Shown: positions 3,848 through 25,204 of the stretch, one piece after another | Numbering within the stretch: the stretch's first letter is position 1 | Layout of the letters: the number at the start of each line of letters is the position of its first letter | Made by a program: the position numbers and the translations under genes | Virus record (IMG/VR): IMGVR_UViG_3300030099_003428 | Coordinates: 1 to 31,688 of that record | DNA from: a virus | Length of the DNA: 31,688 nucleotides | Direction: 5' to 3' (one strand) | The notes under the pieces: generated by a model | What the model was told of the DNA's origin: nothing | Seen by the model: only the letters and a program-made list of their open reading frames with translations | The model's database searches: none

Positions 3848-4162
3848 ATGAAAAAGTTTATTACAATCTTATTTTTTTTACTAACATTCAATATTTATTC
3901 TCAAGATATTACGGTTATTCATTTTAATTATAAATGGAATCAACAAAATGATTATTCAAAACTAGAGTCTATTAGAAGAGCTAATGTTTCAAAAGCTCTT
4001 GTTGAAGACCAAAGTGCTGATTTACAAAATAGTATTAAATCAGTTCCAGTAATAATTATTTTTAGAAACGGTAAGCCCGTAGCAAGGATAGAGGCTGGAT
4101 TAAGTATGAAAATAGAAGCTAGGCTTGAAGAAATTCAAGAATTAGTAGATAGATACAATTAA
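3848..4162 (+). CDS. Exported thioredoxin-fold protein lacking the CxxC motif
   Basis: The 104-residue product starts with a signal peptide (Lys-Lys, a hydrophobic core at 4-14, likely cleavage at YS|Q about residue 18), a form common in Flavobacteriia, so it should act outside the inner membrane. The remainder matches thioredoxin order: strand VIHF, then W30, where WCxxC is expected but WNQQN stands. There is no Cys anywhere in the protein. The second half keeps the cis-proline strand SVPVIIIFRNGKPVARIEAG (Pro67) and the final helix. The fold is probably thioredoxin, but a disulphide reaction is impossible. It could serve as a binding or scaffold module, for example at the envelope during lysis or exclusion. 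The role is inferred. Confidence 0.75.
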   Translation: MKKFITILFFLLTFNIYSQDITVIHFNYKWNQQNDYSKLESIRRANVSKALVEDQSADLQNSIKSVPVIIIFRNGKPVARIEAGLSMKIEARLEEIQELVDRYN

Positions 4163-4169
4163 TAAAATT

Positions 4170-4457
4170 ATGGCAAGAAAAAACGCACCATCAAGAAAAA
4201 AATCTCTTGGCTATTATGCCAAAGTTAAAAAAGGCTCAGGTCGAGGTAAAAAAGCCGGTGGTGGTATGACCGCTAAAGGTGTTGCCAAATATAGAAGGGA
4301 TAATCCTGGAAGTAAATTAAAAACTGCAGTAACTACTCCACCTTCAAAATTAAAAAAAGGAAGTAAAGCTTACAAAAGAAGAAAAGCATTCTGTGCAAGA
4401 TCAAGAAGTTGGACTTCAGAAAGAGGTAAAGCTGCAAGACGTAAATGGAACTGTTAA
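4170..4457 (+). CDS. Small basic protein, 95 aa, FCAR/WNC type
   Basis: Highly basic protein with a Gly/Lys-rich N-terminal half, then a conserved-looking block with PGSKLKTAVT, PPSKLKKGSKA, RRKAFCARS and the C-terminal RRKWNC. This block is characteristic of small proteins found widely in phages of aquatic bacteria, whose function is not known. It contains exactly two Cys, one at residue 75 and one as the final residue. The start has the leader AAAATTATG. It opens a run of microproteins that ends at 5866. A DNA-condensing or virion-internal role is an inference from composition. Confidence 0.8.
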   Translation: MARKNAPSRKKSLGYYAKVKKGSGRGKKAGGGMTAKGVAKYRRDNPGSKLKTAVTTPPSKLKKGSKAYKRRKAFCARSRSWTSERGKAARRKWNC

Positions 4458-4467
4458 TATAAAAAAT

Positions 4468-4611
4468 ATGGATAATAAAAATAAAAATATGGATTTAGAC
4501 GGATCTCAAGTTCTGTCTCCTAAACAAAAAAGAATAGCGGCAATGGCTCCACCATTTAATAAAATAACTGGTGCTGATTTTAAAATGCTAAGAAATAAAA
4601 ATAAAAATTAA
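4468..4611 (+). CDS. 47-aa microprotein, SPKQKRIAAMAPP type
   Basis: I choose the ATG at 4468, which follows an A-rich leader after the preceding stop. A longer in-frame reading from 4393 would overlap the previous gene and adds unlikely residues. The product has an Asn/Lys-rich start, then LSPKQKRIAAMAPPFNKITG and ADFKMLR. This core, with KQKxIAAxAPPxxxITGxDFxxLR, is a recurring phage microprotein pattern and is the main evidence that the gene is real. There is no Cys. Both ends of the gene contain near-identical AAATAAAAATAAAAAT stretches, encoding NKNKN. Function unknown. Confidence 0.75.
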   Translation: MDNKNKNMDLDGSQVLSPKQKRIAAMAPPFNKITGADFKMLRNKNKN

Positions 4612-4615
4612 AATT

Positions 4616-4750
4616 ATGCCAAAAGACGCATGTTATTACAAGGTAAAAGCTAGATATAAAGTATTTCCAAGCGCATATGCAAGCGGAGCAATAGCTAAAT
4701 GTAGAAAAGTTGGCGCTGCTAATTACGGAAAATCATCTAAGAAAAAATAA
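4616..4750 (+). CDS. 44-aa basic microprotein, YKVFPSAYASGA type
   Basis: The 44-residue product begins MPKDACYYKVKARYKVFPSA and continues YASGAIAKCRKVGAANYGK. The segment CYxKVKxRYKVxPSAYASGAxxKCRKVGA is a very recognisable pattern seen in many aquatic phages, so the gene is trusted despite its size. Two Cys residues (6 and 29) are part of the conserved pattern. The start has the leader AAAATTATG. The stop TAA shares its last base with the next gene's ATG (TAATG). Function unknown; binding of DNA or RNA is plausible from charge. Confidence 0.85.
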   Translation: MPKDACYYKVKARYKVFPSAYASGAIAKCRKVGAANYGKSSKKK

Positions 4751-5034
4751 TGGCTGATCCAAAAACTGGTACAGGTAAAAAACCTAAAGGTTCAAGTAGA
4801 AGATTATATACAGACGAAAATCCTAAAGATACAGTTAGGATTAAGTATGCTACTATGGCTGATGCAAGAGCAACCTGTGCTAAAGTTAAAAAAAGTGGCA
4901 AGCCTTTTGCTCGTAAAATACAAATATTAACAGTAATGGAGCAAAGATCAAGGTTTGGTAAAAAACCAAAACAAGCTGCATATGCTAAATCATGCAAAAA
5001 TGCAATAAGAAGACAACATGGCAAAAAGACCTGA
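4750..5034 (+). CDS. Small basic protein, 94 aa, GTGKKPKGSSRRLYTDENP type
   Basis: The N-terminal motif GTGKKPKGSSRRLYTDENPK is typical of a widespread aquatic phage protein family of unknown role. The centre (residues 31-65) is a mixed strand/helix segment ending FARKIQILTVMEQRSRFGKK, and a basic helix follows. There are exactly two Cys, in RATCAKV and KSCKNA. Its ATG overlaps the previous stop by one base, indicating coupled translation, and it overlaps the next gene by 17 bases. The regular positive charge along helices suggests contact with nucleic acid; nothing more can be said from sequence. Confidence 0.85.
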   Translation: MADPKTGTGKKPKGSSRRLYTDENPKDTVRIKYATMADARATCAKVKKSGKPFARKIQILTVMEQRSRFGKKPKQAAYAKSCKNAIRRQHGKKT

Positions 5035-5260
5035 ATTTAAAGAAAGTAAATATCCAGACGCAAAGGGCAAGTTTAAAGAACTTTCTTGTGCGGATCTAGC
5101 TAAATATATGATAAGCAGCCGTAAAGGCAATAAAAGAGCTATTATAGGGTCTTTAAACCAGCAAATTGTGTTTAATAGAAAGAAAAATCCTTCATATGCA
5201 AAAAAAATGGTTTGCACACGTAATAAAGTAAGCAAAATATTAACTAAAAATAAAAAATAA
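5018..5260 (+). CDS. Small basic protein, 80 aa, unknown function
   Basis: The product is Lys-rich throughout, with a predicted helix-loop-helix centre (LSCADLAKYMISS ... KRAIIGSLNQQIVFNRK) and a basic tail. Two Cys residues lie in LSCADL and MVCTRN. The gene starts inside the last 17 bases of the preceding gene and ends with a TAATG overlap into the next, so it belongs to one tightly coupled translational unit. I recognise no named family. The even Lys spacing and short length match its neighbours. Confidence 0.75.
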   Translation: MAKRPEFKESKYPDAKGKFKELSCADLAKYMISSRKGNKRAIIGSLNQQIVFNRKKNPSYAKKMVCTRNKVSKILTKNKK

Positions 5261-5436
5261 TGAAAATAAAAGGAGTAGACGTTACTTGTTTATCTAAAAA
5301 ACAGCAAAAAACAATGAAGGCTCACTCAAAACATCATACAGGAAAGCATATTAGAGGTATGGTAAATAAAATGTGTGGTAAAGAAAAAATGAGTTTTACT
5401 GAATCTCATAAATCTGCAATGAAAATTGGCAAATAA
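5260..5436 (+). CDS. 58-aa basic microprotein, His/Lys-rich
   Basis: The gene encodes a product beginning MKIKGVDVTCLSKKQQKTMK, followed by a His-rich patch (HSKHHTGKH) and a second Cys in KMCGKE. The pattern VDVTxLxxxQxxTMxxHSKHHTxxHxxxM, with FTxSHKxAM near the end, recurs in aquatic phage genomes. It is linked by TAATG overlaps both to the gene before and to the gene after. Two Cys and a cluster of four His could coordinate metal, but this is an inference. Function unknown. Confidence 0.8.
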   Translation: MKIKGVDVTCLSKKQQKTMKAHSKHHTGKHIRGMVNKMCGKEKMSFTESHKSAMKIGK

Positions 5437-5711
5437 TGGCTGTTAGAAAAACAAAAGAAGGTGCAGCTCTTAAACGCTGGTTTAAAGAAAAGTGGGTAGA
5501 TGTGCGTACTGGTAAACCTTGTGGTAGACGCAAAGGCGAAAAAAGAGGTACTCCATATTGTAGGCCAAGCAAAAGAGTATCTAGCAAAACACCTAAAACC
5601 GCTTCTGAAATGTCATCTGCTGAAAAAAGATCAAAAATAGCAGAAAAGAAAAGATTAGGGCAACCAGCCGGCAAGCCAAGAAGAGTTAAATCATTAAAAA
5701 GAAGAAAATGA
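5436..5711 (+). CDS. Small basic protein, 91 aa, RWFKEKWVDVRTGKPCGR type
   Basis: The N-terminal half holds the well-known block ALKRWFKEKWVDVRTGKPCG, then YCRPSKRVS and KTPKTASEM. This block is shared by a family seen in phages and large viruses of aquatic microbes (listed as a domain of unknown function, DUF5872 if I recall the number correctly). The pair of Cys residues in GKPCGR and PYCRPS belongs to that block. The C-terminal 35 residues are a Lys/Arg-rich helix and tail. It is joined by TAATG to the gene before and by ATGA to the gene after. The role is unknown. Confidence 0.88.
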   Translation: MAVRKTKEGAALKRWFKEKWVDVRTGKPCGRRKGEKRGTPYCRPSKRVSSKTPKTASEMSSAEKRSKIAEKKRLGQPAGKPRRVKSLKRRK

Positions 5712-5866
5712 AAAAATCAAGAGGACTAGGAGATTCAATAGAAAAGGTTACAAAAGCAACCGGTATTAAAACCATGGTTGATACAATATCAAAAGGATTA
5801 AACATTCCATGTGGATGTGAAGGTAGAAGGGATGCCTTAAATAAAATATTCCCATATAAAAAATAA
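5708..5866 (+). CDS. 52-aa microprotein, GLGDSIEKVTKATGIK / CGCEGRR type
   Basis: The sequence is SRGLGDSIEKVTKATGIKTM, then a helix and IPCGCEGRRDALNKIFPY. The pattern GLGDxIxxxTxxTGIKxxVD...CGCxxRxxxLNxxFPY is a recurrent microprotein of phages of Bacteroidetes and other aquatic hosts. Two cysteines form a C-G-C pair, suited to metal binding or a strained disulphide. The start overlaps the preceding stop (ATGA). It is the last of the coupled run and the only one with a near-neutral N-terminal helix. Function unknown. Confidence 0.83.
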   Translation: MKKSRGLGDSIEKVTKATGIKTMVDTISKGLNIPCGCEGRRDALNKIFPYKK

Positions 5867-5870
5867 AATT

Positions 5871-6065
5871 ATGAATTATACATTAATATTAATAGCTATA
5901 GTCGCATTTGTAATTGGTATAGTAATTGCATCAATGTGGTTAGAAAAAAAAGGTATTACAAAAGACGATAACGATAATTATATTCCTGATGTTTTAGAAG
6001 ACAAAGCTAAAGAAATTAAAAAGAAAGCTAAAGATATAGGAAATATTGTTAAGAAGAAAAAGTAA
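5871..6065 (+). CDS. Small membrane protein, 64 aa
   Basis: The N-terminal residues 4-23 form one membrane segment (YTLILIAIVAFVIGIVIASM). Next comes an acidic D-rich loop (DDNDNYIPD) resembling a calcium-binding Asp repeat, then a Lys-rich helix (residues 46-64). It sits immediately upstream of the holin with a TAATG overlap, so it may help lysis or be a second membrane component. Proteins with the 'KKGIxKDxxxNxIPDxLE' form occur in phages of Bacteroidetes. No function can be assigned with certainty. Confidence 0.75.
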   Translation: MNYTLILIAIVAFVIGIVIASMWLEKKGITKDDNDNYIPDVLEDKAKEIKKKAKDIGNIVKKKK

Positions 6066-6526
6066 TGTCAAAACAAAGAAAAAAATTAAAGGATACAGCA
6101 GTTGGTAAATTTTTAGCAGGTGCTGGTTCAAATATAATCGGCAGTCTTGGAGATGTTCTTCCTGATAAAGGAGTTATGGGGTTAGTTAAAAACCTTATTA
6201 AAAAAGATCCTGAATTACCAGCAGAAGATAAAGAAAAAGCATTAGCGCTTTTACATCAAGATACTGTTGAAATGCAAGAGGTTTCAAAACGCTGGCAGGC
6301 GGATATGAAATCAGATTCGTGGCTTTCAAAAAACACAAGACCTTTAACATTAGTATTTTTAACTGTGTCAATGGTCTTATTAATATTTATAGATAGTACT
6401 GGAATAGATTTTGATGTAGACAGCGGGTGGGTTGATCTTTTAAAATCTTTATTAATTACTGTATATGTAGCTTATTTTGGATCACGTGGTGCAGAAAAAT
6501 TCAAAACAATACAAAACAAAAACTAA
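6065..6526 (+). CDS. Holin of the gene-transfer-agent 3-TM type
   Basis: Probable holin, forming the lesion in the inner membrane that times lysis. The 153-residue protein has an N-terminal amphipathic region (residues 1-45), a charged helix, and then the signature SDSWLSKNTRPLTLVFLT, where a membrane segment starts (about 94-110). A second membrane segment lies at about 123-139, followed by FGSRGAEK. 'SWLxKNxRPL' before the first strong membrane segment is characteristic of the GTA_holin_3TM family (Pfam PF11351). It overlaps the small membrane gene by one base and lies six bases before the fibre gene. No endolysin is recognisable nearby. The family call is good; the holin activity is from family knowledge. 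Confidence 0.8.
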   Translation: MSKQRKKLKDTAVGKFLAGAGSNIIGSLGDVLPDKGVMGLVKNLIKKDPELPAEDKEKALALLHQDTVEMQEVSKRWQADMKSDSWLSKNTRPLTLVFLTVSMVLLIFIDSTGIDFDVDSGWVDLLKSLLITVYVAYFGSRGAEKFKTIQNKN

Positions 6527-6532
6527 TAAAAA

Positions 6533-9322
6533 ATGCCTAAAATAGATACTTATTCATTAGATACAACCTTAACAGATAACGATAGTTTATTAGGTATAAA
6601 TGCAGCAGACGGTAAAACTAAAAGATATGCCATGTCTGCTATTAAAACTTTCGTTGCTTCTGTAGCTGATATTGAAGGTGTAACAGCCGGCACAGGTTTA
6701 ACTGGTGGTGGTACTAGCGGCACGGTAACATTAGCTGTAGCAGCAGCTCAAACTGGAATTACCTCTGTAGTCAATACAGCGTTAGAAATTGGTAGAGATG
6801 CTGATAATAGAATTAAATTTGGTACAGATAATCAAATAATATTTGAAGTTGACGGAGGCGATAATGTTATATTTAAAACATCGGGTGAAATAGAAGCTAC
6901 TAGTTTGGATATATCAGGAGATGCTGATATTGATGGAACTTTAGAAGCTGATGCTATTACAGTTAATGGAACTGCACTAGCAGAAGTAATATCTGATACA
7001 ACAGGAGCAATGTTTACTGGTAATACAGAAACATTTATAACAGCTACGTATGAAGATAGTGATAATACTATAGATTTAGTTGTGCCTGTTTTAGATGAAG
7101 ATAATATGGCTTCTAATTCAGCCTCTCATTTAGCAACACAACAATCAATTAAAGCTTATGTAGATTCACAAGTAGCTACCGCAGATACATTAGCTGAATT
7201 AAGCGATACAAATATAGGTTCATTAGCTTCTGGTCATATTTTAATATATGATGGTTCTGATAGCTTTGATAATAAAGCTGTTTCAGGTGATATAACTATA
7301 GCTAGTACAGGTGCCGTTACAATTGCCAACGACGCTGTTGAAACAGCAATGTTAAATGATAATGTTGTAACAGGTCAAAGTGAATTAAGTACTGTAGCTA
7401 ATGATGATGTATTATTAATATATGATACATCGGGTTCTGCTCTTAAAAAAATTACAAGAAGCGCTTTAGTAGCAGGGTTAGCAACATCAGGAGCTATATC
7501 AAATGTAGTTGAGGATACAACGCCACAGTTGGGAGGTGATTTAGATGTTAACGGAAATGGGCTAGTATCTACAAGCAACGGTAATATTGCATTAACACCA
7601 AATGGTACAGGAGTTGTTAGATTAGATACAAATGTTGATATTGAATCAGGTAAAATATCTATTAAAAATTCAGGTTCACAATCATATGTAAGGTTTTATT
7701 GTGAAGTAAGTAATGCACATTATGCTCAATTACAAGCCCCAGCGCACTCGGCTTTTTCAGGAAATGTTATATTAACTCTTCCTACTACTACAAGTAATAT
7801 AGTTGGTGACACGGCAACGCAAACTATTACTAATAAAACTATAGACGTTGATAATAATACAGTTTCAAATATTGAAGTTGATAACTTAAAATCAGGAGTA
7901 CTAGATACTGATATATCTTCTGTATCAGGAAGTGATGATACTTTAGCATCAGCAAAAGCTATAAAAACATATGTTGACGCGCAAATTCAAACAGAAGATA
8001 CTTTAGTTGAATTAAATGATACTAATATTACTTCTCCAGCAGCAGGTCATATTTTAATATACGACAATACAGCAGGTGTTTTTGATAACGCAACTATAAC
8101 CGCTGGTAGTGGTATTAGCGTTACAAATGGGGATGGGGCTATAACAATAGCTAACACAGCAGCAGGTGATAACGCATTTGGAACTATAGCAGTATCAGGG
8201 CAAACAAATGTTGTAGCTGACAGCGTAAATGATACACTAACTTTAGCGGCTGGAACAGGTATTGCAATAACTACAACACCAGGTACAGATACTGTAACTA
8301 TAACAAACAATGCTACCGGGGCTAACGCTTTTGGTAATATTGCGGTTTCTGGGCAAACAACAGTAGCGGCAGATTCAACTAATGATACACTAACTTTAGC
8401 AGCAGGGTCAAATGTAACATTAACAACAGACGCTTCTAGCGATACCGTTACTATAGCTGCATCAGCAGGCGCAAATACTATAGATGTTAATGAATATACA
8501 GGTAATGGATCAACGGCTGCTTATACTTTAAATACTAGTGCGTCAAGCGAAAATGAATTACTTGTATATATGGATGGTGTTTACCAGCATCACAATACGT
8601 ATTCTGTTTCAGGAACAACGCTAACGTTTGACACTAATGTTCCTAATGGATCTAAAGTTGAGGCCTTCCACATGAGAAGCGTTAACTTGTCAAATGTTGT
8701 AACAAGCGCAGTAGCGGGTGAGGGTATAGATGTTTCAGCATCAACAGGCGCTGTAACTATTTCGGCAGAAGACGCAACAACATCAAATAAAGGTATTGCA
8801 TCATTTAGCTCAGATAATTTTGCTGTATCTTCCGGAGCGGTTACAATAAAAGACGGAGGTATTGTAACAGCAGAGCTAGCGGCAGACGCGGTTACTGGAG
8901 ATAAGATAGCAGACGATGCAATCAATTCAGAACATTATACAGACGGTAGTATTGATAATGCGCACATAGCTGATAATCAAATAAGTTATGAAAAAATAGA
9001 CGATGAATTTTCTACGGTCGATACTTTAAGCGCAGGTGCAACGGTTGCAGTTGATTTTGACGCAGCACAAGTATTTACGTTAACACCAAATCAAAACACA
9101 ACATTAAATATAACAAACCCTAAAATTGGTATTACTAAAACAATAATAATGACAGGGGCAGGAAGCAGTTATACTTTAGCTTTTCAAGTAGGAGGATCAT
9201 CAGGTACATTTAATAAAATAGCTGGCGATTATGATGACACTTCAAGTAAAAAGAATTTTATTCAAATTACATGTGTAGCTGCTACAGAATTCTGGTATAG
9301 TATAAGTCAAATAGCAAGTTAA
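6533..9322 (+). CDS. Large tail fibre / appendage protein, 929 aa
   Basis: Likely host-contact fibre on the outside of the virion. The product is rich in Thr, Ala, Asn, Asp and Gly, with many short beta repeats and very few Lys or aromatic residues, typical of a trimeric fibre. The N-terminus (1-50) is a candidate attachment domain. Related units lie at about 208-247 and 478-517 (both 'YVDxQ...DTLxELxDTNI..AxGHILIYD'), and an imperfect tandem repeat lies at 547-594 and 598-643. Residues 655-714 form a beta module (YTGNGSTAAYTL...) also seen in the connector gene at 26845. The C-terminus (828-929) is a close paralogue of the C-terminus of the 179-aa protein at 11542. It opens the host-recognition module. 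Confidence 0.85.
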   Translation: MPKIDTYSLDTTLTDNDSLLGINAADGKTKRYAMSAIKTFVASVADIEGVTAGTGLTGGGTSGTVTLAVAAAQTGITSVVNTALEIGRDADNRIKFGTDNQIIFEVDGGDNVIFKTSGEIEATSLDISGDADIDGTLEADAITVNGTALAEVISDTTGAMFTGNTETFITATYEDSDNTIDLVVPVLDEDNMASNSASHLATQQSIKAYVDSQVATADTLAELSDTNIGSLASGHILIYDGSDSFDNKAVSGDITIASTGAVTIANDAVETAMLNDNVVTGQSELSTVANDDVLLIYDTSGSALKKITRSALVAGLATSGAISNVVEDTTPQLGGDLDVNGNGLVSTSNGNIALTPNGTGVVRLDTNVDIESGKISIKNSGSQSYVRFYCEVSNAHYAQLQAPAHSAFSGNVILTLPTTTSNIVGDTATQTITNKTIDVDNNTVSNIEVDNLKSGVLDTDISSVSGSDDTLASAKAIKTYVDAQIQTEDTLVELNDTNITSPAAGHILIYDNTAGVFDNATITAGSGISVTNGDGAITIANTAAGDNAFGTIAVSGQTNVVADSVNDTLTLAAGTGIAITTTPGTDTVTITNNATGANAFGNIAVSGQTTVAADSTNDTLTLAAGSNVTLTTDASSDTVTIAASAGANTIDVNEYTGNGSTAAYTLNTSASSENELLVYMDGVYQHHNTYSVSGTTLTFDTNVPNGSKVEAFHMRSVNLSNVVTSAVAGEGIDVSASTGAVTISAEDATTSNKGIASFSSDNFAVSSGAVTIKDGGIVTAELAADAVTGDKIADDAINSEHYTDGSIDNAHIADNQISYEKIDDEFSTVDTLSAGATVAVDFDAAQVFTLTPNQNTTLNITNPKIGITKTIIMTGAGSSYTLAFQVGGSSGTFNKIAGDYDDTSSKKNFIQITCVAATEFWYSISQIAS
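8171..8461 (+). repeat. Imperfect tandem repeat inside the 929-aa fibre
   Basis: Two copies of a roughly 50-residue unit follow each other. Each begins NAFGxIAVSGQT, passes through VNDTLTLAAG or TNDTLTLAAG, and ends DTVTI. At DNA level both contain AATGATACACTAACTTTAGC. The copies fit a beta-repeat fibre shaft that can lengthen or shorten by recombination. Confidence 0.85.
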
Positions 9323-9323
9323 T

Positions 9324-11135
9324 ATGTTTGGACAAGGTATAAATTTTGGTTTATTAGCAGCAGTAGAAGTAGTTGTAGATTTCCTCGTAGTAGCAGGTGC
9401 AGGAGCAGGGGGTGGATCTTACGGTGGAGGAGGAGGTGCAGGTGGTTTACGCACATCATACGGATCTTCCAGTGGCGGTGGATCAAGTAATGAAGCACAA
9501 ATAACATTAGCAGATACAACGTATACATTCACAGTAGGCGCAGGTGGTACTGGTGTTATAGGAACAGTTAAAGGAAATGATGGTAACGATTCATCTATAG
9601 CAGCTTCAGGCTTAACTACAATCACATCTGTAGGAGGTGGAGGTGGAGGTACTGCTGGAGGTGGAGCAAATTATAATACATCATTTGTTGTCGGTCAAGA
9701 CGGTGGTTCAGGTGGTGGAGGTGGAACTTTAGCACAAGCTAGTCCATATACAGTAGCAGGGGGAGCAGGAACAGCAAATCAAGGTTATGGTGGTGGTACA
9801 GGAGGTTTAGGTTCTTTCAACGGCACAACAGGTGCAGGTGCAGGTGGAGGTGCGAGTGCAGTAGGTGGTAATGGTAAAACAACAGGTTATAGGCTTGGTG
9901 GTGATGGGGGTGCAGGTCTTGCAGTTTCAATAACTGGAAGTTCAACATCATACGCAGGTGGTGGGGGAGCAGGTAGTGAAGGATCACCTGGAGGTTCAGG
10001 TGGTACAGGGGGTGGCGCTAGTGGTGGTGTAGCTAGTTCAACATCTGCTAGTAGCGGAACTGCTAACACTGGTGGAGGCGGAGGTGGTAACGGAAATAAT
10101 TCAACACTTAGTTCAGGTGCAGGTGGATCAGGTGTTATTGTATTTAGATTACCTACATCAGCATATACAACAGGTTATACTACTGGTTTTCCTACAGTTA
10201 CAACTAGCGGAACAGATACAATATTAAAATATACAGGCTCAGGAACATATGTTCATAATGCAACAGCACCAAATTTTATGTACTATTTAGTTTTAGCAGG
10301 TGGTGCTTCTGGAGCTTCTAATGGTGGAGGCGGAGGAGCAGGAGGACTTAGAACATCTTATGGAGCACAAGGATCAGGAGGTGGAAGTGCATTAGAAAGT
10401 GCAATTACATTATCCAATGGAACCTATACTATTACAGTAGGTGGAGGTGGTGCAGGATTAAATAACTCAACTGATTATCAAGATAGAGGTAATGCAGGTT
10501 CAAACAGCACAATTACAGGTAACGCTTCTGTAAGTACTAATGGGGGTGGTGCTCCAGGTTCTAATGATTTAACAGCATCGTCGGGCGGTGGTTGTGGTGG
10601 TGGACAAGGTGCGCACCCAAGCTCAGCAAGATCTGCACAAGCAGGAACGACTGGAGAAGGTTATGCAGGAGGTGCAACCCCCTCAACTGGACATCCATAT
10701 CGTGGCGGTGGTGGTGGAGGAACTGGACAAGCAGGTTTTTCTAATAATGCAGGTAGCGACACAAGTAACGGTGGTGATGGATTAGCAGTGAGTATAACTG
10801 GATCTTCTGTTAATTATGGAGCAGGAGGTGGTGGTACTGGAGGTACTGGTTCAGGTTATACAGGCGCAGGTGGTACTGGTGGCGCAGGTGGTGGCGGTAA
10901 CGGAGGTGCTTATAATGGAAGCGGTACTGCAGGAACAGTAAACACAGGAAGTGGTGGTGGTGCTACTGGTGATGCAGGTAGTCTTACGTCAGGAGCAGGA
11001 GGTTCTGGAATAGTAATATTAAGAATGGCAACATCAAATTATTCTGGATCAGTAAGCGGGAGCCCAACAGTAACCACAAGTGGAAGCGATACAATAATAA
11101 AATTTACAGGAAGCGGTAGCTATACTCATAGTTAA
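9324..11135 (+). CDS. Glycine-rich duplicated tail adhesin, 603 aa
   Basis: Probable receptor-binding adhesin. After a short hydrophobic N-terminus, the protein consists of two diverged copies (about 18-313 and 318-603). Each copy begins LVVAG or LVLAG, has GGGGGAGGLRTSYG, passes through Gly runs broken by short strands (YTFTVGAGG, YTITVGGGG), has GLAVSITGSS, and ends GAGGSGVIVFR or GAGGSGIVILR followed by TVTTSG and KYTGSGTY or KFTGSGSY. Glycine runs of this type pack as polyglycine-II helices in the gp38 adhesins of some T-even-like phages, so a similar tip is an inference. It begins one base after the fibre stop. Gly codon bias gives high local G content. Confidence 0.85.
   Translation: MFGQGINFGLLAAVEVVVDFLVVAGAGAGGGSYGGGGGAGGLRTSYGSSSGGGSSNEAQITLADTTYTFTVGAGGTGVIGTVKGNDGNDSSIAASGLTTITSVGGGGGGTAGGGANYNTSFVVGQDGGSGGGGGTLAQASPYTVAGGAGTANQGYGGGTGGLGSFNGTTGAGAGGGASAVGGNGKTTGYRLGGDGGAGLAVSITGSSTSYAGGGGAGSEGSPGGSGGTGGGASGGVASSTSASSGTANTGGGGGGNGNNSTLSSGAGGSGVIVFRLPTSAYTTGYTTGFPTVTTSGTDTILKYTGSGTYVHNATAPNFMYYLVLAGGASGASNGGGGGAGGLRTSYGAQGSGGGSALESAITLSNGTYTITVGGGGAGLNNSTDYQDRGNAGSNSTITGNASVSTNGGGAPGSNDLTASSGGGCGGGQGAHPSSARSAQAGTTGEGYAGGATPSTGHPYRGGGGGGTGQAGFSNNAGSDTSNGGDGLAVSITGSSVNYGAGGGGTGGTGSGYTGAGGTGGAGGGGNGGAYNGSGTAGTVNTGSGGGATGDAGSLTSGAGGSGIVILRMATSNYSGSVSGSPTVTTSGSDTIIKFTGSGSYTHS
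9375..11132 (+). repeat. Two-copy internal duplication of the glycine-rich adhesin
   Basis: Copy one covers about 9375-10262 and copy two about 10275-11132. Both keep the same order of landmarks (GGLRTSYG, GLAVSITGSS, GAGGSG, TVTTSG) but differ at many codons, so the duplication is old. The Gly-rich stretches between the landmarks differ in length. Confidence 0.85.
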
Positions 11136-17583: not shown

Positions 17584-17809
17584 AGCTGTTGATGAACTTG
17601 TAAAAGTTGCTAAAGAAGCTATAGTTGAAACTGAAGATGATGTTTCAGCAGATAGATTAAAAAATGCAGCAGCAACTAAAAAACTAGCTATATTTGATGC
17701 ATTTGAAATACTTAATAGAATACAAGCAGAAGAAGCTTTATTAGAAAATAAACCATTACAAAATAAAGAAAAAGCTTTTAGTGGTTTTGCAGAAAAAAGA
17801 TCTAAGTAA
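17537..17809 (+). CDS. Probable small terminase subunit, 90 aa
   Basis: The product is helical, with VKVAKEAIVETEDDVSADRL, then KNAAATKKLAIFDAFEILNR and IQAEEALLE. The 'DRLKNAAATKKLAIFDAFEIL' block is a repeated feature of the gene directly upstream of the large terminase in flavobacterial phages. The position and the TAATG overlap with terL are the main arguments for a DNA-recognition or packaging role. At 90 residues it is short for a small terminase and lacks a clear helix-turn-helix. It overlaps the previous gene by 47 bases; a later start is not obvious because the conserved part begins soon after. Confidence 0.65.
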   Translation: MNIKEKKKNIIRAGYKAVDELVKVAKEAIVETEDDVSADRLKNAAATKKLAIFDAFEILNRIQAEEALLENKPLQNKEKAFSGFAEKRSK

Positions 17810-20025
17810 TGAGCTATAAACAAACTTTATATCAAGTTATAACACCTATAAAGCAAAACACAATACATAGATTAAATAAAAAGAAAGCTTGGAAGTATGG
17901 TTATAACAAAGAGCATGACGTTATTGTTATAAGTAAAACAGGTAAGATAGGAGAGGTTTACGAAATACAAAATTTAAAGATAGCTTTACCGAAAGAAGAA
18001 AACGTGTATAGCAAAATAAATAAGTGGACTAGATTCGAATATCCAAAAGAACTAAAGAATATTAAAACAATATTCAATTGGGAAACATATCCTATAGAGT
18101 TTAAAAATAAATGGTATGAATATATTGATAAAGAGTTTACAAGACGTGAAGAAGGCTTTTGGTTTACTAATAAAAACAAAAGTACTTATATTACTGGCTC
18201 TCATTACAATTACCTGCAGTGGTCCAAGATTGATGTTGGGAACCCAGACTTTCGAGAAGCAAACAGACTATTCTTCATATTCTGGGAAGCTTGCAAGGCA
18301 GACGATAGATGCTATGGAATTTGCTACCTTAAAAATAGGCGTTCCGGATTTTCATTCATGTCAAGTGCTGAAACGGTTAATCAAGCCACAATTTCGTCAG
18401 ACTCTAGATTCGGAATCTTATCGAAGACTGGTGGAGATGCAAAGAAGATGTTTACCGACAAGGTTGTACCAATATCAACCCACTACCCGTTTTTTTTCAA
18501 ACCCATACAGGACGGAATGGACAGGCCAAAAACTGAACTTGCCTTCAGGGTACCAGCGTCCAAGCTCACCCGTAAATCCATCACCACCCCAAGCACCAGC
18601 ACCGCCAACGAGATCGAAGGGCTCGATACAACAATAGATTGGAAAAACACAGGAGATAACTCTTATGATGGTGAAAAGTTAAAATTACTTGTTCACGATG
18701 AATCTGGTAAATGGGAAAGACCAGATAATATATTAAATAACTGGCGTGTTACAAAAACAACGTTGAGACTTGGAAGTAGAATTATAGGTAAATGTATGAT
18801 GGGATCTACTTCAAATGCCTTAGATAAAGGTGGAGATAACTTTAAAAAATTATACTATGACTCAGACGTTACAAAAAGAAACCGCAATGGACAGACTAGC
18901 TCGGGACTATATAGTTTGTTCATACCTATGGAATGGAACTACGAAGGATTCATTGATTCTTATGGATTACCTGTATTCGACACACCCGAAACTGCAATTG
19001 AAGGACCCTATGGTGATAAAATCGACATTGGTATAATAGAACATTGGGAAAACGAAGCAGATGGTTTAAAGAATGATCAAGATGGATTAAATGAATTTTA
19101 TAGACAATTTCCAAGAACAGAAGAACATGCATTCCGAGATGAAACAAAAAATAGTATATTTAATTTACAAAAAATATACGAACAAATAGATTACAATGAA
19201 AATGTTAAATCTAGTGGATTAATATCAAAAGGTAATTTTCAATGGGAAAATGGTGTTAAAGATTCAAAAGTAATTTTTATGCCAGATACCAAAGGCAGAT
19301 TTAATATTTCATGGGTTCCTCCAATTCATTTACAAAATAAAATACAAATGAATAAAGGAATAAAAAAACCTGCAAATGAACATATAGGAGCATTTGGATG
19401 TGACTCGTATGATATATCAGGCACAACTGATGGAAGTGGATCAAAAGGTTCTTTGCATGGATTAACAAAATTTAGTATGGATGATGCCCCATCAAATACA
19501 TTTTTTTTAGAATATGTAGCTAGACCGCAAACAGCTGAAATATTTTTTGAAGATGTATTAATGGCATTAGTGTTTTATGGTATGCCACTTCTTGCAGAAA
19601 ATAATAAACCAAGATTATTATATTATTTAAAAAGAAGAGGATATAGAGGTTATTCAATGAATAGACCAGATAAGCCATCAAATAAATTATCTGTAGCAGA
19701 AAGAGAAATAGGAGGAATGCCTAACTCATCAGAAGATATAAAACAAGTTCACGCTGCAGCAATAGAATCTTATATAGATAAATATGTGGGATTACAAGAA
19801 AACGGTGATTATGGTAATATATACTTTAACACTACATTAAATGATTGGTCTAAATTTAACATAAATAATAGAACAAAGTTTGATGCATCTATAAGTTCAG
19901 GTTTAGCAATAATAGCATGTAATAGACATTTGTATCAACCTAAAAAATTAAGAACAACTAAAACATTAGATTTTGGTTTTAAAAAATACAATAATCAAGG
20001 AAGTATTTCAAAAATAATAAGATAA
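17809..20025 (+). CDS. terL: Large terminase subunit (packaging ATPase and nuclease)
   Basis: Motor that pumps DNA into the procapsid and cuts it. The 738-residue product has EGFWFTNKN-STYITGSHYNY (115-135), then the ATPase core. An unusual Walker A-like loop, LKNRRSGFSF, lies at 174-183. LKLLVHDESGKW (291-302) contains the Walker B acidic residues D297 and E298. A coupling motif CMMGSTSNA is at 329-337. The C-terminal nuclease starts with the acidic FGCDSYDIS (529-537) and contains later acidic residues (EDVLMAL, ESYIDKYVG). The length suits crAss-like and flavobacterial TerL proteins. Nucleotides 18181-18660 are sharply GC-richer than both flanks. It overlaps the upstream gene by one base, and its stop is directly followed by the portal ATG. 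Confidence 0.94.
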   Translation: MSYKQTLYQVITPIKQNTIHRLNKKKAWKYGYNKEHDVIVISKTGKIGEVYEIQNLKIALPKEENVYSKINKWTRFEYPKELKNIKTIFNWETYPIEFKNKWYEYIDKEFTRREEGFWFTNKNKSTYITGSHYNYLQWSKIDVGNPDFREANRLFFIFWEACKADDRCYGICYLKNRRSGFSFMSSAETVNQATISSDSRFGILSKTGGDAKKMFTDKVVPISTHYPFFFKPIQDGMDRPKTELAFRVPASKLTRKSITTPSTSTANEIEGLDTTIDWKNTGDNSYDGEKLKLLVHDESGKWERPDNILNNWRVTKTTLRLGSRIIGKCMMGSTSNALDKGGDNFKKLYYDSDVTKRNRNGQTSSGLYSLFIPMEWNYEGFIDSYGLPVFDTPETAIEGPYGDKIDIGIIEHWENEADGLKNDQDGLNEFYRQFPRTEEHAFRDETKNSIFNLQKIYEQIDYNENVKSSGLISKGNFQWENGVKDSKVIFMPDTKGRFNISWVPPIHLQNKIQMNKGIKKPANEHIGAFGCDSYDISGTTDGSGSKGSLHGLTKFSMDDAPSNTFFLEYVARPQTAEIFFEDVLMALVFYGMPLLAENNKPRLLYYLKRRGYRGYSMNRPDKPSNKLSVAEREIGGMPNSSEDIKQVHAAAIESYIDKYVGLQENGDYGNIYFNTTLNDWSKFNINNRTKFDASISSGLAIIACNRHLYQPKKLRTTKTLDFGFKKYNNQGSISKIIR

Positions 20026-22443
20026 ATGGATATAGTACCAAGAGGGATATTCCCAAGCCAAACAGTTTCCAATGCTACTAAAGCAAGTGAGCCATACGGA
20101 TTAGAAGTTGGAAAAGCTATAGAATCTGAATGGTTTAAAAGAGATTCAGGTCCTAACAAGTATTACGCTAATAGAGATCAATTTCATAGATTAAGATTAT
20201 ATGCTAGAGGGGAGCAATCAATTCAAAAATATAAAGATGAATTATCAATAAATGGTGATTTATCATATTTAAATTTAGATTGGAAACCTGTACCTATAAT
20301 ACCAAAGTTTATAGATATAGTTGTAAATGGTATAGCCGAAAGAACTTATGATATAAAAGCATATTCACAAGATCCTCTTTCTATAAAGAAAAGAACTGAT
20401 TACGTAGAGTCTATGCTAAGAGATATGAGAACTGTAGAATTTTCAGATTCTGTATATAATGAATTAGGTATAAATATATATGAAAATGATCCTGATATGA
20501 TACCTGAAACAGAAGAAGATTTAGAGTTGCATATGCAATTAGATTATAAAGACTCTGTAGAAATTGCTGAAGAAGAAGCTATTAATAATGTTATGGATCA
20601 TAATAAATATGATTTAATAAAGAAAAGATTAGATTATGATATAGCTGTTGTTGGAATGGGTGCTGTTAAAAATGAATATACAAATTCTGAAGGTATAAAT
20701 ATTAAGTATGTTGATCCAGCTGATTTAGTTTATTCATATACGGAATCGCCTTATTTTGATGATATATATTACATAGGTGAAATTAGAAAAGTATCATTAG
20801 TTGATTTGAAAAAACAATACCCTGATTTAACAGATGAAGATATTAAAAAATATGTTGAAGGCCAAGGAACTAATGTAAAGTTACATAATAAATCTTATGC
20901 AGCTGCGGACGCTGAAGATTTTTCTTATGCATATGTACTTTATTTTGAATATAAAACCTATAGAGATCAAGTATATAAAATTAAAGAAACAGCAACTGGC
21001 GGTAAAAAAGCTTTAGCTAAAGAAGATACTTTTAATCCGCCTAAAGATCAAAGATCAAGATTTGAAAAATCAAATAGAACAATTGAAGTAATTTATTGTG
21101 GTGCAAAAATAGTAGGATCAGATAAAATGTTAATGTGGCAGTTAGCAGAAAACATGACAAGACCTAAATCAAATACAGTAAAAGCAATGTTTAGCTATGC
21201 TGTAGTTGCCCCTAGAATGTATAAAGGTAAAGTTGAATCATTAGTTAGCAGAATGACAACGTTTGCTGATATGATACAATTAACTCATTTAAAATTACAA
21301 CAGGTATTATCAAGAATGGTGCCAGATGGAGTGTACTTGGATGCAGATGGTATAGCTGAAGTAGATTTAGGTAATGGAACAAATTATAATCCACAAGAAG
21401 CTTTAAACATGTATTTTCAAACCGGTTCTGTTATTGGTAGATCTATGAATCAAGACGGAGAGTTTAATAACGGTAGAGTTCCAATACAAGAATTACAAAC
21501 AGGAAATGGTGGTGGAAAAATTAGTAGTTTAATTACAGCTTATAATTATTACTTGCAAGGAATGCGTGACGTTACAGGTTTAAATGAAGCAAGAGATGGT
21601 TCAACACCTGATAAAAATGCTTTAGTAGGCTTGCAAAAATTAGCAGCAGCAAATTCAAATACAGCTACTAGGCATATATTACAAGCAGGATTATTTTTAA
21701 CATTAAGAACAGCAGAGGCTATTTCATTAAGAATATCAGATGTATTAGAATATGGCCCAACTAAAGAATCTTTTATACAAGCAATAGGAAAATACAATGT
21801 TGGTACATTAACAGAAATGAAAGATTTACAGCTTTATGATTTTGGAATATTTTTAGAATTATCTCCAGATGAAGAAGAAAAACAATTACTTGAAAATAAT
21901 ATTCAAATGTCTTTACAAAAAGAACAAATTAATTTAGAAGACGCTATTGATATAAGAGAAGTTAAAAATTTAAAACTTGCAAATCAATTATTAAAATTAA
22001 GAAGAAGAAGAAAATTTGAACAAGATAGAGTAATACAACAACAAAATATTCAAATGCAAACGCAATCTAACGCACAAGCAGCTCAAGCTGCTGCCCAAGC
22101 AGATGTTCAAAAGCAACAAGCTTTAACAGAAAGCAAAGCTCAATTAGCTCAGGTGCAAGCTCAGTTAGATTCACAAAAACTTGAAAAAGAAGCAGAAATT
22201 AAGATGATGTTAATGCAAAGAGAATTTGAAATGAACATGCAGCTTAAAGGTGTAGATTTACAGGTAATTAAAGATAAAGAGAAGTTTAAAGAAGATAGAA
22301 AGGACGAAAGAACAAAAATACAAGCTTCTCAACAGTCTGAATTAATAGATCAAAGAAAAAATAATAAACCGCCTAAAAACTTTGAATCAGCAGGGTTTGA
22401 TAATTTAGGTGGATTTGGTTTAGAGCAATTTGAACCAAGATAA
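20026..22443 (+). CDS. Portal protein
   Basis: Dodecameric ring at the packaging vertex. The 805-residue length, the position right after terL and the overall character support the call. There is a helical N-terminal part with FHRLRLYARGEQSIQKYKD and PIIPKFIDIVVNGIAERTYD, typical of portals of this group. A beta-rich wing follows (IKYVDPADLVY, YVLYFEYKTY), then a long stem region, and then a Gln/Ala-rich coiled coil (about residues 660-760) that fits the portal barrel inside the head. The middle contains YNYYLQGMRDVTGLNEARDG, a pattern common to portals with this architecture. A putative RNA pseudoknot lies directly after the stop. No enzyme motif is expected. Confidence 0.88.
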   Translation: MDIVPRGIFPSQTVSNATKASEPYGLEVGKAIESEWFKRDSGPNKYYANRDQFHRLRLYARGEQSIQKYKDELSINGDLSYLNLDWKPVPIIPKFIDIVVNGIAERTYDIKAYSQDPLSIKKRTDYVESMLRDMRTVEFSDSVYNELGINIYENDPDMIPETEEDLELHMQLDYKDSVEIAEEEAINNVMDHNKYDLIKKRLDYDIAVVGMGAVKNEYTNSEGINIKYVDPADLVYSYTESPYFDDIYYIGEIRKVSLVDLKKQYPDLTDEDIKKYVEGQGTNVKLHNKSYAAADAEDFSYAYVLYFEYKTYRDQVYKIKETATGGKKALAKEDTFNPPKDQRSRFEKSNRTIEVIYCGAKIVGSDKMLMWQLAENMTRPKSNTVKAMFSYAVVAPRMYKGKVESLVSRMTTFADMIQLTHLKLQQVLSRMVPDGVYLDADGIAEVDLGNGTNYNPQEALNMYFQTGSVIGRSMNQDGEFNNGRVPIQELQTGNGGGKISSLITAYNYYLQGMRDVTGLNEARDGSTPDKNALVGLQKLAAANSNTATRHILQAGLFLTLRTAEAISLRISDVLEYGPTKESFIQAIGKYNVGTLTEMKDLQLYDFGIFLELSPDEEEKQLLENNIQMSLQKEQINLEDAIDIREVKNLKLANQLLKLRRRRKFEQDRVIQQQNIQMQTQSNAQAAQAAAQADVQKQQALTESKAQLAQVQAQLDSQKLEKEAEIKMMLMQREFEMNMQLKGVDLQVIKDKEKFKEDRKDERTKIQASQQSELIDQRKNNKPPKNFESAGFDNLGGFGLEQFEPR

Positions 22444-22444
22444 T

Positions 22445-22478
22445 AAAGGGTCAAGTATTCTACCTTTTTAAAGAATAC
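22445..22478 (+). promoter_or_regulatory. Candidate H-type RNA pseudoknot between portal and scaffold genes
   Basis: Stem 1 would pair AAAGG (22445-22449) with CCTTT (22463-22467). Stem 2 would pair GTATTCT (22455-22461) with AGAATAC (22472-22478). The stems cross, with loops of five, one and four bases. Stem 2 alone would be a simple hairpin with a 10-base loop. No T-run follows, so it is not a typical terminator. A role in mRNA stability or in setting scaffold translation is inferred. Confidence 0.35.
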
Positions 22479-22495
22479 AATAATTATATTATATT

Positions 22496-23734
22496 ATGTC
22501 AGAAGAAATTAAAGCACAAGTTGTAGAAAATGAAAATCTATCTACAACTGAAAAAGAAACTGCAGCACTTAAAAAAATAGGTGCTGATATTGGTGAGGAA
22601 ACAATAACCAAAGTTGATTTAAGACAACCTATAAAAGAAGAAACAGATGCCGTTCAAGAGCAAAGCACAGATGAGGTTCCTGTACGCGACGGATCCGAAG
22701 CTAGCGAAGAGGTTCAAGAAGAAAACCAAACGCAGCCTGAAGAGTCTTCCGGAGAAAGTAAAAAAGAAGAGGAAGAAACGCAAGTAACTTTAGAAGAAGT
22801 TATTGAAGAGGAAGAATCAAAGCAAAAAGAGGAACCTAAACAAGAAGCTGAGGTTGAAGAACTAAAGCAAGAAATAGAAGAAGCTGTACAAACATCACAA
22901 GATACAGCTACAGCATTACCAGAAAACATTCAAAAAGTTGTAGATTTTATGAATGAAACTGGTGGAACGCTAGAAGATTATGTAAAAATTAATCAAGACT
23001 ATTCTAGCATGGAAGACTCAACGCTCTTATATGAATATTATACTCAAACTAAATCGCATTTATCAAAAGATGAAATAGATTTTTTAATTGAAGATAATTT
23101 TAGTATAGATGAAGAGATTGATGAACCAAATAATATTAAGCGTAAAAAACTCGCTTATAAAGAAGAAATTGCAAAAGCTAAAAGCTATTTGGAAGATATG
23201 AAGAATAAATATTACGAAGAAGTCAAGTTGGGTTCTAAGTTATCTCCAGATCAACAAAAAGCTATAGAGTTTTTCAATTCCTATAATAATGAACAATCAA
23301 AACAGCAAAAGCTGCAAGAAAAGCAAACTGCTCATTTTAATAATGAATCTAACAAAATCTTTTCAGATGAATTCAAAGGTTTTGAGTTTAAAGTTGGAGA
23401 TAAAAAATATAGATACAATATTAAGGATAAGCAAGAGCTAAAAGATAAACAATCAAACATTTTGAATATATTAAATAAATATATAAATGAAGATAATATG
23501 TTACAAGATGCTAGTGGTTATCATAAAGCACTTTTTGTTGCAGATAACGCAGATGCAATTGCAAATCACTTTTATGAACAAGGTAAAGCAGATGCAATAA
23601 AACAACTTAACGCGGAATCAAAAAATATAAATATGGAGCCACGTAAAGCTGGTATTGTTGAAGCTGGAGGAGTAAAAGTAAGAGCAATTTCTGGTGATGA
23701 TAGTTCAAAGTTAAGAATAAAACTTAAACAATAA
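22496..23734 (+). CDS. Acidic scaffold-like head assembly protein, 412 aa
   Basis: Likely internal scaffold for the procapsid. It lies between portal and capsid genes, the usual scaffold place. Residues 1-140 are almost wholly disordered and Glu-rich, with VPVRDGSEASEEVQEEN as a landmark also seen in other aquatic phage scaffolds. A helical middle follows (about 140-260, VVDFMNETGGTLEDYVKIN ... EEIDFL), then a charged coiled coil, and a basic C-terminus (VKVRAISGDDSSKLRIKLK) suited to docking on the capsid protein's inner face. This acid-to-base layout is typical of scaffolds. No protease motif (Ser-His pair) was identified. It is not proven to be removed during maturation. Confidence 0.72.
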   Translation: MSEEIKAQVVENENLSTTEKETAALKKIGADIGEETITKVDLRQPIKEETDAVQEQSTDEVPVRDGSEASEEVQEENQTQPEESSGESKKEEEETQVTLEEVIEEEESKQKEEPKQEAEVEELKQEIEEAVQTSQDTATALPENIQKVVDFMNETGGTLEDYVKINQDYSSMEDSTLLYEYYTQTKSHLSKDEIDFLIEDNFSIDEEIDEPNNIKRKKLAYKEEIAKAKSYLEDMKNKYYEEVKLGSKLSPDQQKAIEFFNSYNNEQSKQQKLQEKQTAHFNNESNKIFSDEFKGFEFKVGDKKYRYNIKDKQELKDKQSNILNILNKYINEDNMLQDASGYHKALFVADNADAIANHFYEQGKADAIKQLNAESKNINMEPRKAGIVEAGGVKVRAISGDDSSKLRIKLKQ

Positions 23735-23755
23735 TAATTTAAAAATAAAAACAAA

Positions 23756-25204
23756 ATGGCAGCAATAACTCCAACGGCTGGAGCCTCGTTGAATTCAACA
23801 CCAGCTCCGGTTAAACAAACACTGTCTTCTAACTATCTATCATTTACAGGTGGTTCGAATGACTGGTCTCAGCAGTATTTGCCAGATTTATATGAGCAAG
23901 AAGTAGAAGTATTTGGAAACAGATCTATAGCTTCTTTCTTAAGAATGGTAAGTGCTGAAATGCCTATGACTTCTGACCAAGTAGTTTGGTCTGAGCAAGG
24001 TAGACTACATTTATTTTACACAGGTGCTTCTGTAACGAACGCAGGTGTAATTACAATTGCTTCTTCAGGAACTCATGCAGTAAGAGTTGGTCAAACTATC
24101 GTATTAAGCGATAACCAAACTTCTCCTACAGTAATTAAAGCTTATGTTTCTGCAGTAGCATCAGACAATACTACACTAACAGCAATTCCTTATTCAGGAG
24201 GTGCAACAGTTGGTGCTGTATCTGGATTCACAACCGCTGATGATAGTGGTAGTGCAACGTGTGACTTTTTCGTATTTGGTTCTGAATTTAAGAAAGGAAC
24301 TGCGGGAATGTCTAACGCGGTACAGCCTTCTTTCGCTTCATTAACTAACAAGCCAATTATAATTAAAGATAAGTATGAGGTTTCAGGATCTGATACTTCT
24401 CAAGTTGGATGGGTTGAAGTAACAGGAGAGCAAGGACAAACAGGTTACCTATGGTACTTAAAAGCTGAAGGTGACACAAGACAAAGATTCGAAGACAACC
24501 TTGAAATGGCAATGGTTGAAGGTGAACTAGCAAAAGCATCAGGTGGTGTTGACTCAGAACTTGGAACAGCAGGTGCTAATGACACTGCTGGTACTGAAGG
24601 TCTTTTTGCAGCAATTACTGCAAGAGGTCACATTACTACTGGTATTACTGGTTCTTCAGCTACAGATGATTTAGGATCGTTTGATAACATTCTAAAGAAA
24701 TTTGATGCTCAGGGTGCAATCGAAGAAAACATGTTATACATCAACAGAGAAGTAGCTCTAGCGATTGATGATATGTTAGCAGGGCAAAATTCTCATGTAG
24801 CAGGTGGTACATCATTTGGTGTATTCTCTAACAGCGAGGATATGGCACTTAACTTAGGTTTTTCTGGTTTTAGAAGAGGTTCTTATGACTTCTACAAAAG
24901 CGATTGGAAATACTTAAATGACGGCTCAACAAGAGGTATTATTGAAAACGATATAAGAGGTGTACTTATACCAGCGGGTACTTCTACTGTTTATGACCAA
25001 ACACTTGGTAAAAACATTAAAAGACCTTTCTTACACGTAAGATATAGAGCTTCAGCAGCAGATGATAGAAAAATGAAATCTTGGACAACTGGTTCAGTTG
25101 GAGGAAACTTCAGCTCTGATCTAGACGCAATGGAGGTTCACTATCTATCAGAAAGATGTTTAATTACACAAGGTGCTAACAACTTTATGTTATTAACTTC
25201 TTAA
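23756..25204 (+). CDS. Major capsid protein
   Basis: The 482-residue protein after the scaffold, with the A-rich leader AATAAAAACAAAATG, high Ala/Gly/Ser content and balanced codon use, is the best candidate for the main shell protein (HK97 fold inferred). The N-arm (1-40) has TAGASLNSTP and NYLSFTGGSNDWSQQYLPDL. Residues about 45-75 hold IASFLRMVSAEMPMTSDQVV, a helix/strand pair typical of flavobacterial phage capsids. A Thr/Ser/Gly-rich insertion (about 90-165) may be a surface domain. The C-terminal part has LHVRYRASAADDRKMKSWTT and SERCLITQGANNFMLLTS. A strong terminator directly follows, as expected for a heavily expressed gene. Confidence 0.88.
   Translation: MAAITPTAGASLNSTPAPVKQTLSSNYLSFTGGSNDWSQQYLPDLYEQEVEVFGNRSIASFLRMVSAEMPMTSDQVVWSEQGRLHLFYTGASVTNAGVITIASSGTHAVRVGQTIVLSDNQTSPTVIKAYVSAVASDNTTLTAIPYSGGATVGAVSGFTTADDSGSATCDFFVFGSEFKKGTAGMSNAVQPSFASLTNKPIIIKDKYEVSGSDTSQVGWVEVTGEQGQTGYLWYLKAEGDTRQRFEDNLEMAMVEGELAKASGGVDSELGTAGANDTAGTEGLFAAITARGHITTGITGSSATDDLGSFDNILKKFDAQGAIEENMLYINREVALAIDDMLAGQNSHVAGGTSFGVFSNSEDMALNLGFSGFRRGSYDFYKSDWKYLNDGSTRGIIENDIRGVLIPAGTSTVYDQTLGKNIKRPFLHVRYRASAADDRKMKSWTTGSVGGNFSSDLDAMEVHYLSERCLITQGANNFMLLTS

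Follow-up and report, generated by a model that had tools for sequence, protein, structure and literature searches.

Of the eight consecutive genes for small, strongly basic proteins in the 31,688-nucleotide stretch of viral DNA analysed here (the window, which belongs to a 38,696-base virus record), seven encode proteins with two cysteines, which are gained and lost as pairs in these families. The genes (p1–p8) lie on the + strand at 4170–5866, nearly abutting or overlapping, and encode products of 95, 47, 44, 94, 80, 58, 91, and 52 aa with net charges of +30, +6, +11, +21, +18, +12, +26, and +7 and 2, 0, 2, 2, 2, 2, 2, and 2 Cys, respectively. Every family has homologues in uncultured viruses, indicating that p1–p8 are genes. 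The open reading frames, net charges, and Cys counts bear out the preliminary description of this region as a run of eight basic proteins of 44–95 aa, seven of them with exactly two Cys and one, the 47-aa p2, with none.

Homologues were gathered from uncultured viruses, and all row counts given below are among the matches listed. The 95-aa product of p1 (4170–4457) is a DUF6321-type module, matching Pfam PF19846 over residues 27–84 (E = 5e-11, 43.5 bits vs. a curated cut-off of 28.5), with one Cys at C75 (FCARS) and the other at its C-terminus (C95). Among the matches listed, the second Cys is retained in 209/209 distinct homologues and the first in 182/209; in the other 27 it has moved by 5 columns, leaving a total of two, and some homologues add a further Cys pair. 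Homologues of p2 (47 aa, 4468–4611; no Cys) occur in at least 49–88 loci, and the aligned region is Cys-free in all of those listed. By eye, against genes of P-SCSP2 and HTVC023P, p2 resembles, in degenerate form, the small EF-hand-like genes that other phages carry in their cassettes. The EF-hand loop is clear (DKNKDGKISGEDF) in p2-like small genes at L084 9761–9886 and L085 8278–8643, and degenerate in the p2 of the window.

The p3 product (44 aa, 4616–4750) is a CYYKVKxRYK..PSAYASGA..KCRK module that matches 366 phage records, nearly all from cyanophages, and internal segments of the long PHROG families 727, 38880, and 3477 (E to 8e-17). Both of its Cys are present in 127 of 139 distinct rows among the matches listed; 11 rows have no Cys at these columns (shifted in some), and a single row has one. 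For p4 (94 aa, 4750–5034), a predicted three-helix protein with Cys in helix 1 and helix 3, the 108 distinct full rows listed divide into 39 with both, 69 with neither, and none with one; for p5 (80 aa, 5018–5260), the corresponding numbers among the matches listed are 54, 7, and 0. The pair of p6 (58 aa, 5260–5436), an HSKHHTxKH protein, occurs in 3 distinct rows of the window lineage, while in the other 32 listed the first Cys is absent and the alignment is gapped at the second; five conserved His are present in Cys+ and Cys– rows alike. The p7 product (91 aa, 5436–5711) is a DUF5872 C-terminal module (GKPCGR..YCRPS; Pfam PF19197, E = 2e-15, 58.1 bits vs. a curated cut-off of 27.5) with two Cys in 122/124 of the aligned regions listed, the pair being shifted in position in some homologues, and p8 (52 aa, 5708–5866; IPCGCEGRR) retains its CxC in 90/90 distinct rows among those listed. 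Three further families from the same loci behave similarly: x1 (CNKPK..KAC; e.g., L284 6770–7054) carries two Cys pairs that switch independently of each other, both in all-or-none fashion, and x2 (MYC..KGCGH) and x3 (DVTC..MHNC) are all-or-none, with Cys– rows that often lack the partner residue in the alignment.

Taken over several hundred homologues among the matches listed, the two Cys of each module appear and vanish together. In trees built with the Cys columns masked, the minimum number of switches was 3 for p4, 2 for p5, 1 for p3, 1 for p7, and 5 and 4 for the pairs of x1 (six pairs, five families), and both sites changed together in every independent pair (16/16 over all branches, 10/10 over supported ones). 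A matching partner was found for 17/24 polymorphic Cys columns in the cassette vs. 17/132 in control families from the same loci (p = 1.5e-8, a value somewhat overstated by treating columns as independent), and an odd number of Cys in 38/821 cassette rows vs. 177/697 rows of small controls. Pairwise loss or gain, sometimes with a shift in position, in family after family strongly supports the shared constraint on Cys that had been suggested for the window. Common loss of the pairs among homologues had been named as evidence against such a constraint; p4 and p6 do show common loss, but its all-or-none character points the opposite way. Global avoidance of Cys does not account for Cys-free cassettes, other large proteins having 0.45% Cys in Cys+ loci vs. 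0.64% in Cys– loci. The Pelagibacter phage HTVC033P (L492 7659–9004) offers a natural Cys-free comparison: six of its seven consecutive small basic genes are Cys-free, and the DUF6321 protein alone has a pair.

Sequence comparison further identifies the cassette families as modules. Five pairwise fusions (p1+p3, p1+p7, p3+p7, p4+p5, and p4+p7) occur in uncultured viruses, including p4+p5 in L147, p3+p7 in L202, L207, and L237, and p1+p3 in several proteins of 365–685 aa. So varied a set of fusions suggests a shared site or process of action for the modules. The p3 hits that we examined fall in T4-GC 119, a multi-module protein of about 365–500 aa in T4-like phages (cyanomyoviruses; PHROG 727-like) that is encoded in the packaging region, usually between terminase genes. 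In P-RSM4 it combines a DUF5872-like segment and the p3 module with another two C..C segments and DUF6321, with two Cys in each, and S-B43 has a similar chain to which a domain and a Cys-rich segment are added. The fused protein matches 489/50,697 phage records. In the window the p1 and p3 modules and the DUF5872-like segment are instead encoded by small genes of their own, and the terminase of this phage resembles those of Flavobacterium and Cellulophaga phages. The cassette is thus a stand-alone form of a modular protein family with a wide distribution.

The same holds for the two Pfam families. Although p1 matches DUF6321 above the curated cut-off, it stands alone, with an FCARS..WNC Cys pair. 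p7 matches the second half of DUF5872 (profile positions 48–111 of 116), whose two-part, one-chain architecture is absent from the window: the first part resembles the separate p3 gene (E = 0.18 only), and each half has its own Cys pair. The cassette proteins had been called dissimilar to one another; the matches of p7 and, weakly, p3 to the C- and N-terminal parts of DUF5872, which are fused in some viruses, indicate at least some shared origin among their sequences. They had also been thought to be without described function, and this still applies in that no function is attached to DUF6321, DUF5872, or T4-GC 119, all of which are already on record. An algal giant virus carries a DUF5872 annotation as well (PMC12085832), and literature searches for DUF5872 or DUF6321 gave a single passing mention. 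PDB sequence searches with p1 and p7 returned no match, PDB fold searches with p4 and p1 none below E 0.001, comparison of the p4 model with viral models only uncharacterised relatives, and an NCBIfam search nothing useful. A GTDB scan gave ten matches (nine metagenome-assembled genomes and one Prochlorococcus assembly), which are presumably phage contigs.

Cassette genes lie in late regions. In phage isolates, they are found beside genes for terminase, portal, scaffold, capsid, or lysis: P-RSM4, S-CREM2, and S-SM1 have a homologue between TerS and TerL, CRP-7 and Venkman have cassette genes just before the terminase, and between the scaffold and capsid genes of the T7-like P-SCSP2 lie five small ones (p3-like, EF-hand-like, p6-like without Cys, DUF5872, and DUF6321). 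The window cassette adjoins lysis and tail genes, being followed on the + strand by genes for a 64-aa membrane protein and a holin (together 5871–6526; holin at 6065–6526, PHROG 3427, E = 4e-20). Terminase, portal, and capsid-type proteins are encoded at 17809–25204, the cassette being some 12 kb away from terminase and portal. The nearest terminases are those of MW202828 (62%) and then of Flavobacterium and Cellulophaga phages (47%), so the host is probably a member of the Flavobacteriia.

We tentatively propose, as a reading that is possible and not yet probable, that the cassette supplies late, basic, interchangeable modules, each locked by a disulphide, that act on packaged DNA or at the inner head surface. 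These small proteins would form one functional unit, made as separate polypeptides in some phages and as a multi-module protein (T4-GC 119) in others. The two Cys of each Cys-bearing module would close on each other in an intramolecular disulphide, and since the cytoplasm reduces disulphides, the bond would form after exit from it, in particles that have been assembled or released. The set would neutralise or organise DNA near the packaging machinery; a DNA-associated role in the head is our best guess from the charge of the proteins and their late-gene context. The CxC of p8, an unusual disulphide, counts against this proposal, as do the position of the window cassette beside lysis and tail genes, far from terminase and portal, and the failure of p4 and p1 to match any solved fold.

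Proteomic data bear on the location of these proteins. ORF137 of S-CREM2 (L087 6717–8189), with a non-basic part of 400 aa and a C-terminal DUF6321 module, was detected in CsCl-purified virions by 4 unique peptides (4.1% coverage; PMC10665884), which may stem from the non-basic part. In S-SM1, the T4-GC 119 gene is still annotated as hypothetical, though the virion proteome of this phage was mapped for annotation; its product has 24 tryptic peptides of usable length, which makes the apparent non-detection meaningful. The DUF6321 protein gp084 of S-SZBM1 (by gene order probably S-SZBM1_192) is not in the S-SZBM1 proteome table. The window proteins have 2–4 usable tryptic peptides each, and failure to detect proteins of this size would say little. 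With one fused homologue in virions and two others apparently not, these data point at most weakly to a virion location. The idea of a phage chromatin or DNA–protein core, raised in the preliminary description, is plausible given the charge and the late-gene context, and the proteomic data lend it little direct support.

The proteins could instead be late intracellular factors (RNA- or DNA-binding, or associated with host takeover or lysis) in which the Cys pair is structural or a redox switch. The apparent absence of the S-SM1 and S-SZBM1 homologues from proteomes and the position of p8, at the cassette end, next to the holin are what such factors would predict. We consider this somewhat unlikely given the virion detection of S-CREM2 ORF137 and the repeated placement of cassette genes between packaging and head genes.

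Among the chemistries that had been offered for the Cys, an intramolecular disulphide in each Cys-bearing module fits best. In Cys– rows of p4, C-C is replaced by V-G, I-A, or A-A, which suggests a buried contact rather than a surface ligand set, and an AF2 model of p4 (pLDDT about 90 or more for residues 31–90) puts one Cys in helix 1 and the other in helix 3 of a three-helix core modelled with confidence. No His or Cys was lost along with the pair in any of the seven families tested, making an internal Cys2His2 zinc site unlikely; of the metal binding that had been suggested, a Cys/His site within one protein is therefore disfavoured. The zinc ribbon class does not fit either, as it requires four co-switching Cys/His ligands and the modules offer two Cys with no His co-switching. 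Phage redox enzymes gave no firm link to the Cys state: glutaredoxin was absent from 38 contigs, and a thioredoxin fold was found in 8/19 Cys+ vs. 3/19 Cys– contigs, which are of unequal length.

Zinc might still be bound if each protein lent two Cys to a shared site, as 2+2 in a dimer or between proteins. All-or-none loss of Cys is known from the zinc ribbons of ribosomal proteins, and the cassette families resemble them in this respect; moreover, p6 and x2 are His-rich, and families in one locus tend toward a common Cys state. The ribosomal proteins, for which alternative zinc-free forms are described in PMC5912738 and PMC13343924, differ in that theirs are ribbons with more ligands, while a cassette module has one Cys pair and no linked His. 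With only two Cys per module, His unchanged with Cys in seven families, no well-conserved His that tracks the Cys in p4, p5, and x3, His retained without Cys in p6 and x2, and replacements (V-G, I-A, A-A) that better fit a buried contact, we regard a shared zinc site as unlikely.

Within a locus, p4, p5, x1, and x3 are mostly in the same Cys+ or Cys– state, with few discordant loci, and on the p5 tree the states of p4, p5, and x3 agree in both of the independent comparisons with support (2/2). We treat genome-wide switching of the families in concert as a lead, with one or two independent events per comparison and some mixed loci. A phage protamine system would place this switching in a wider frame: unrelated basic microproteins, each disulphide-locked or cross-linked, would form chromatin in the head, and marine lineages would jointly switch the set between Cys and Cys-free forms, perhaps depending on the redox or storage environment of the virions. 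We consider this system quite unlikely. The closest concept is that of the protamine-like condensers of eukaryotic viruses: the baculovirus P6.9, adenovirus core proteins, and DVNP (PMC3281028, PMC11953307) are likewise small, basic, and tied to viral DNA or virions, a resemblance of character rather than of demonstrated sequence relation. For phages, a 2012 paper sees no evidence of a major part for basic proteins in neutralising dsDNA genomes (PMC3281028). A late, head-associated disulphide set like the cassette would probably be new for bacterial viruses.

The disulphides could also join different cassette proteins, as bivalent cross-linkers in a protamine-like network around DNA. Several basic proteins with two Cys each are found together, as in sperm chromatin networks (PMC5122968), and the agreement of p4, p5, and x3 and the scarcity of discordant loci are in keeping with such links. 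Coupling within each protein, however, is explained without partners, p3 is Cys+ in the mixed loci L153, L163, and L167 while p4, p5, and x3 are Cys–, and the DUF6321 pair persists in the otherwise Cys-free cassette of HTVC033P. Cross-linking between proteins is therefore distinctly improbable, and the intramolecular disulphide remains the pairing that we favour.

The prevalence of two-Cys proteins was compared with 106 control families of other small ORFs (40–110 aa) from related loci. Exactly two Cys were present in 11% of control members, in 8% of those with K+R below 20%, and in 20% of those with K+R of at least 20%, a class that itself includes further cassette families; these rates are approximate, the gene calls coming from a simple length-maximising script. 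The post hoc probability of at least seven of eight proteins with two Cys is 1.7e-6, 1.6e-7, and 7.9e-5 at rates of 11%, 8%, and 20%, respectively. The comparison with small proteins of related loci, which might have undercut the pattern, favours it, with 8–20% of members vs. 7/8 in the cassette. That two Cys are simply commonplace in small basic proteins is hardly credible, since even the 20% rate in such ORFs, from a set containing cassette families, leaves a probability of 8e-5, and pairwise switching differs from that of controls at p = 1.5e-8.

The modules are very common in marine phages and have no assigned function. We know of no accepted protein-based DNA packaging aid in dsDNA phages; if the proposed role is true, the cassette could reveal one. 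The pairwise Cys signature is concrete and cheaply testable on cultured isolates.

The genes flanking the cassette have features of their own. Immediately upstream on the + strand, a 104-aa protein (3848–4162) has a signal-peptide-like start and a C-terminal half that looks thioredoxin-like (VPVIIIFRNGKPV) but lacks CxxC; it has no significant Pfam match of its own, and proteins of similar length with weak thioredoxin matches are present in the related-phage contigs G008 and G016. Genes for GroEL (521 aa) and GroES (87 aa) lie directly upstream of the late region, at 723–2535, in the same order as in MW202828. The region directly 3′ of the holin, at 6533–11135, encodes two long proteins, of 929 aa and 603 aa, that both contain internal repeats; glycine is very abundant in the second.
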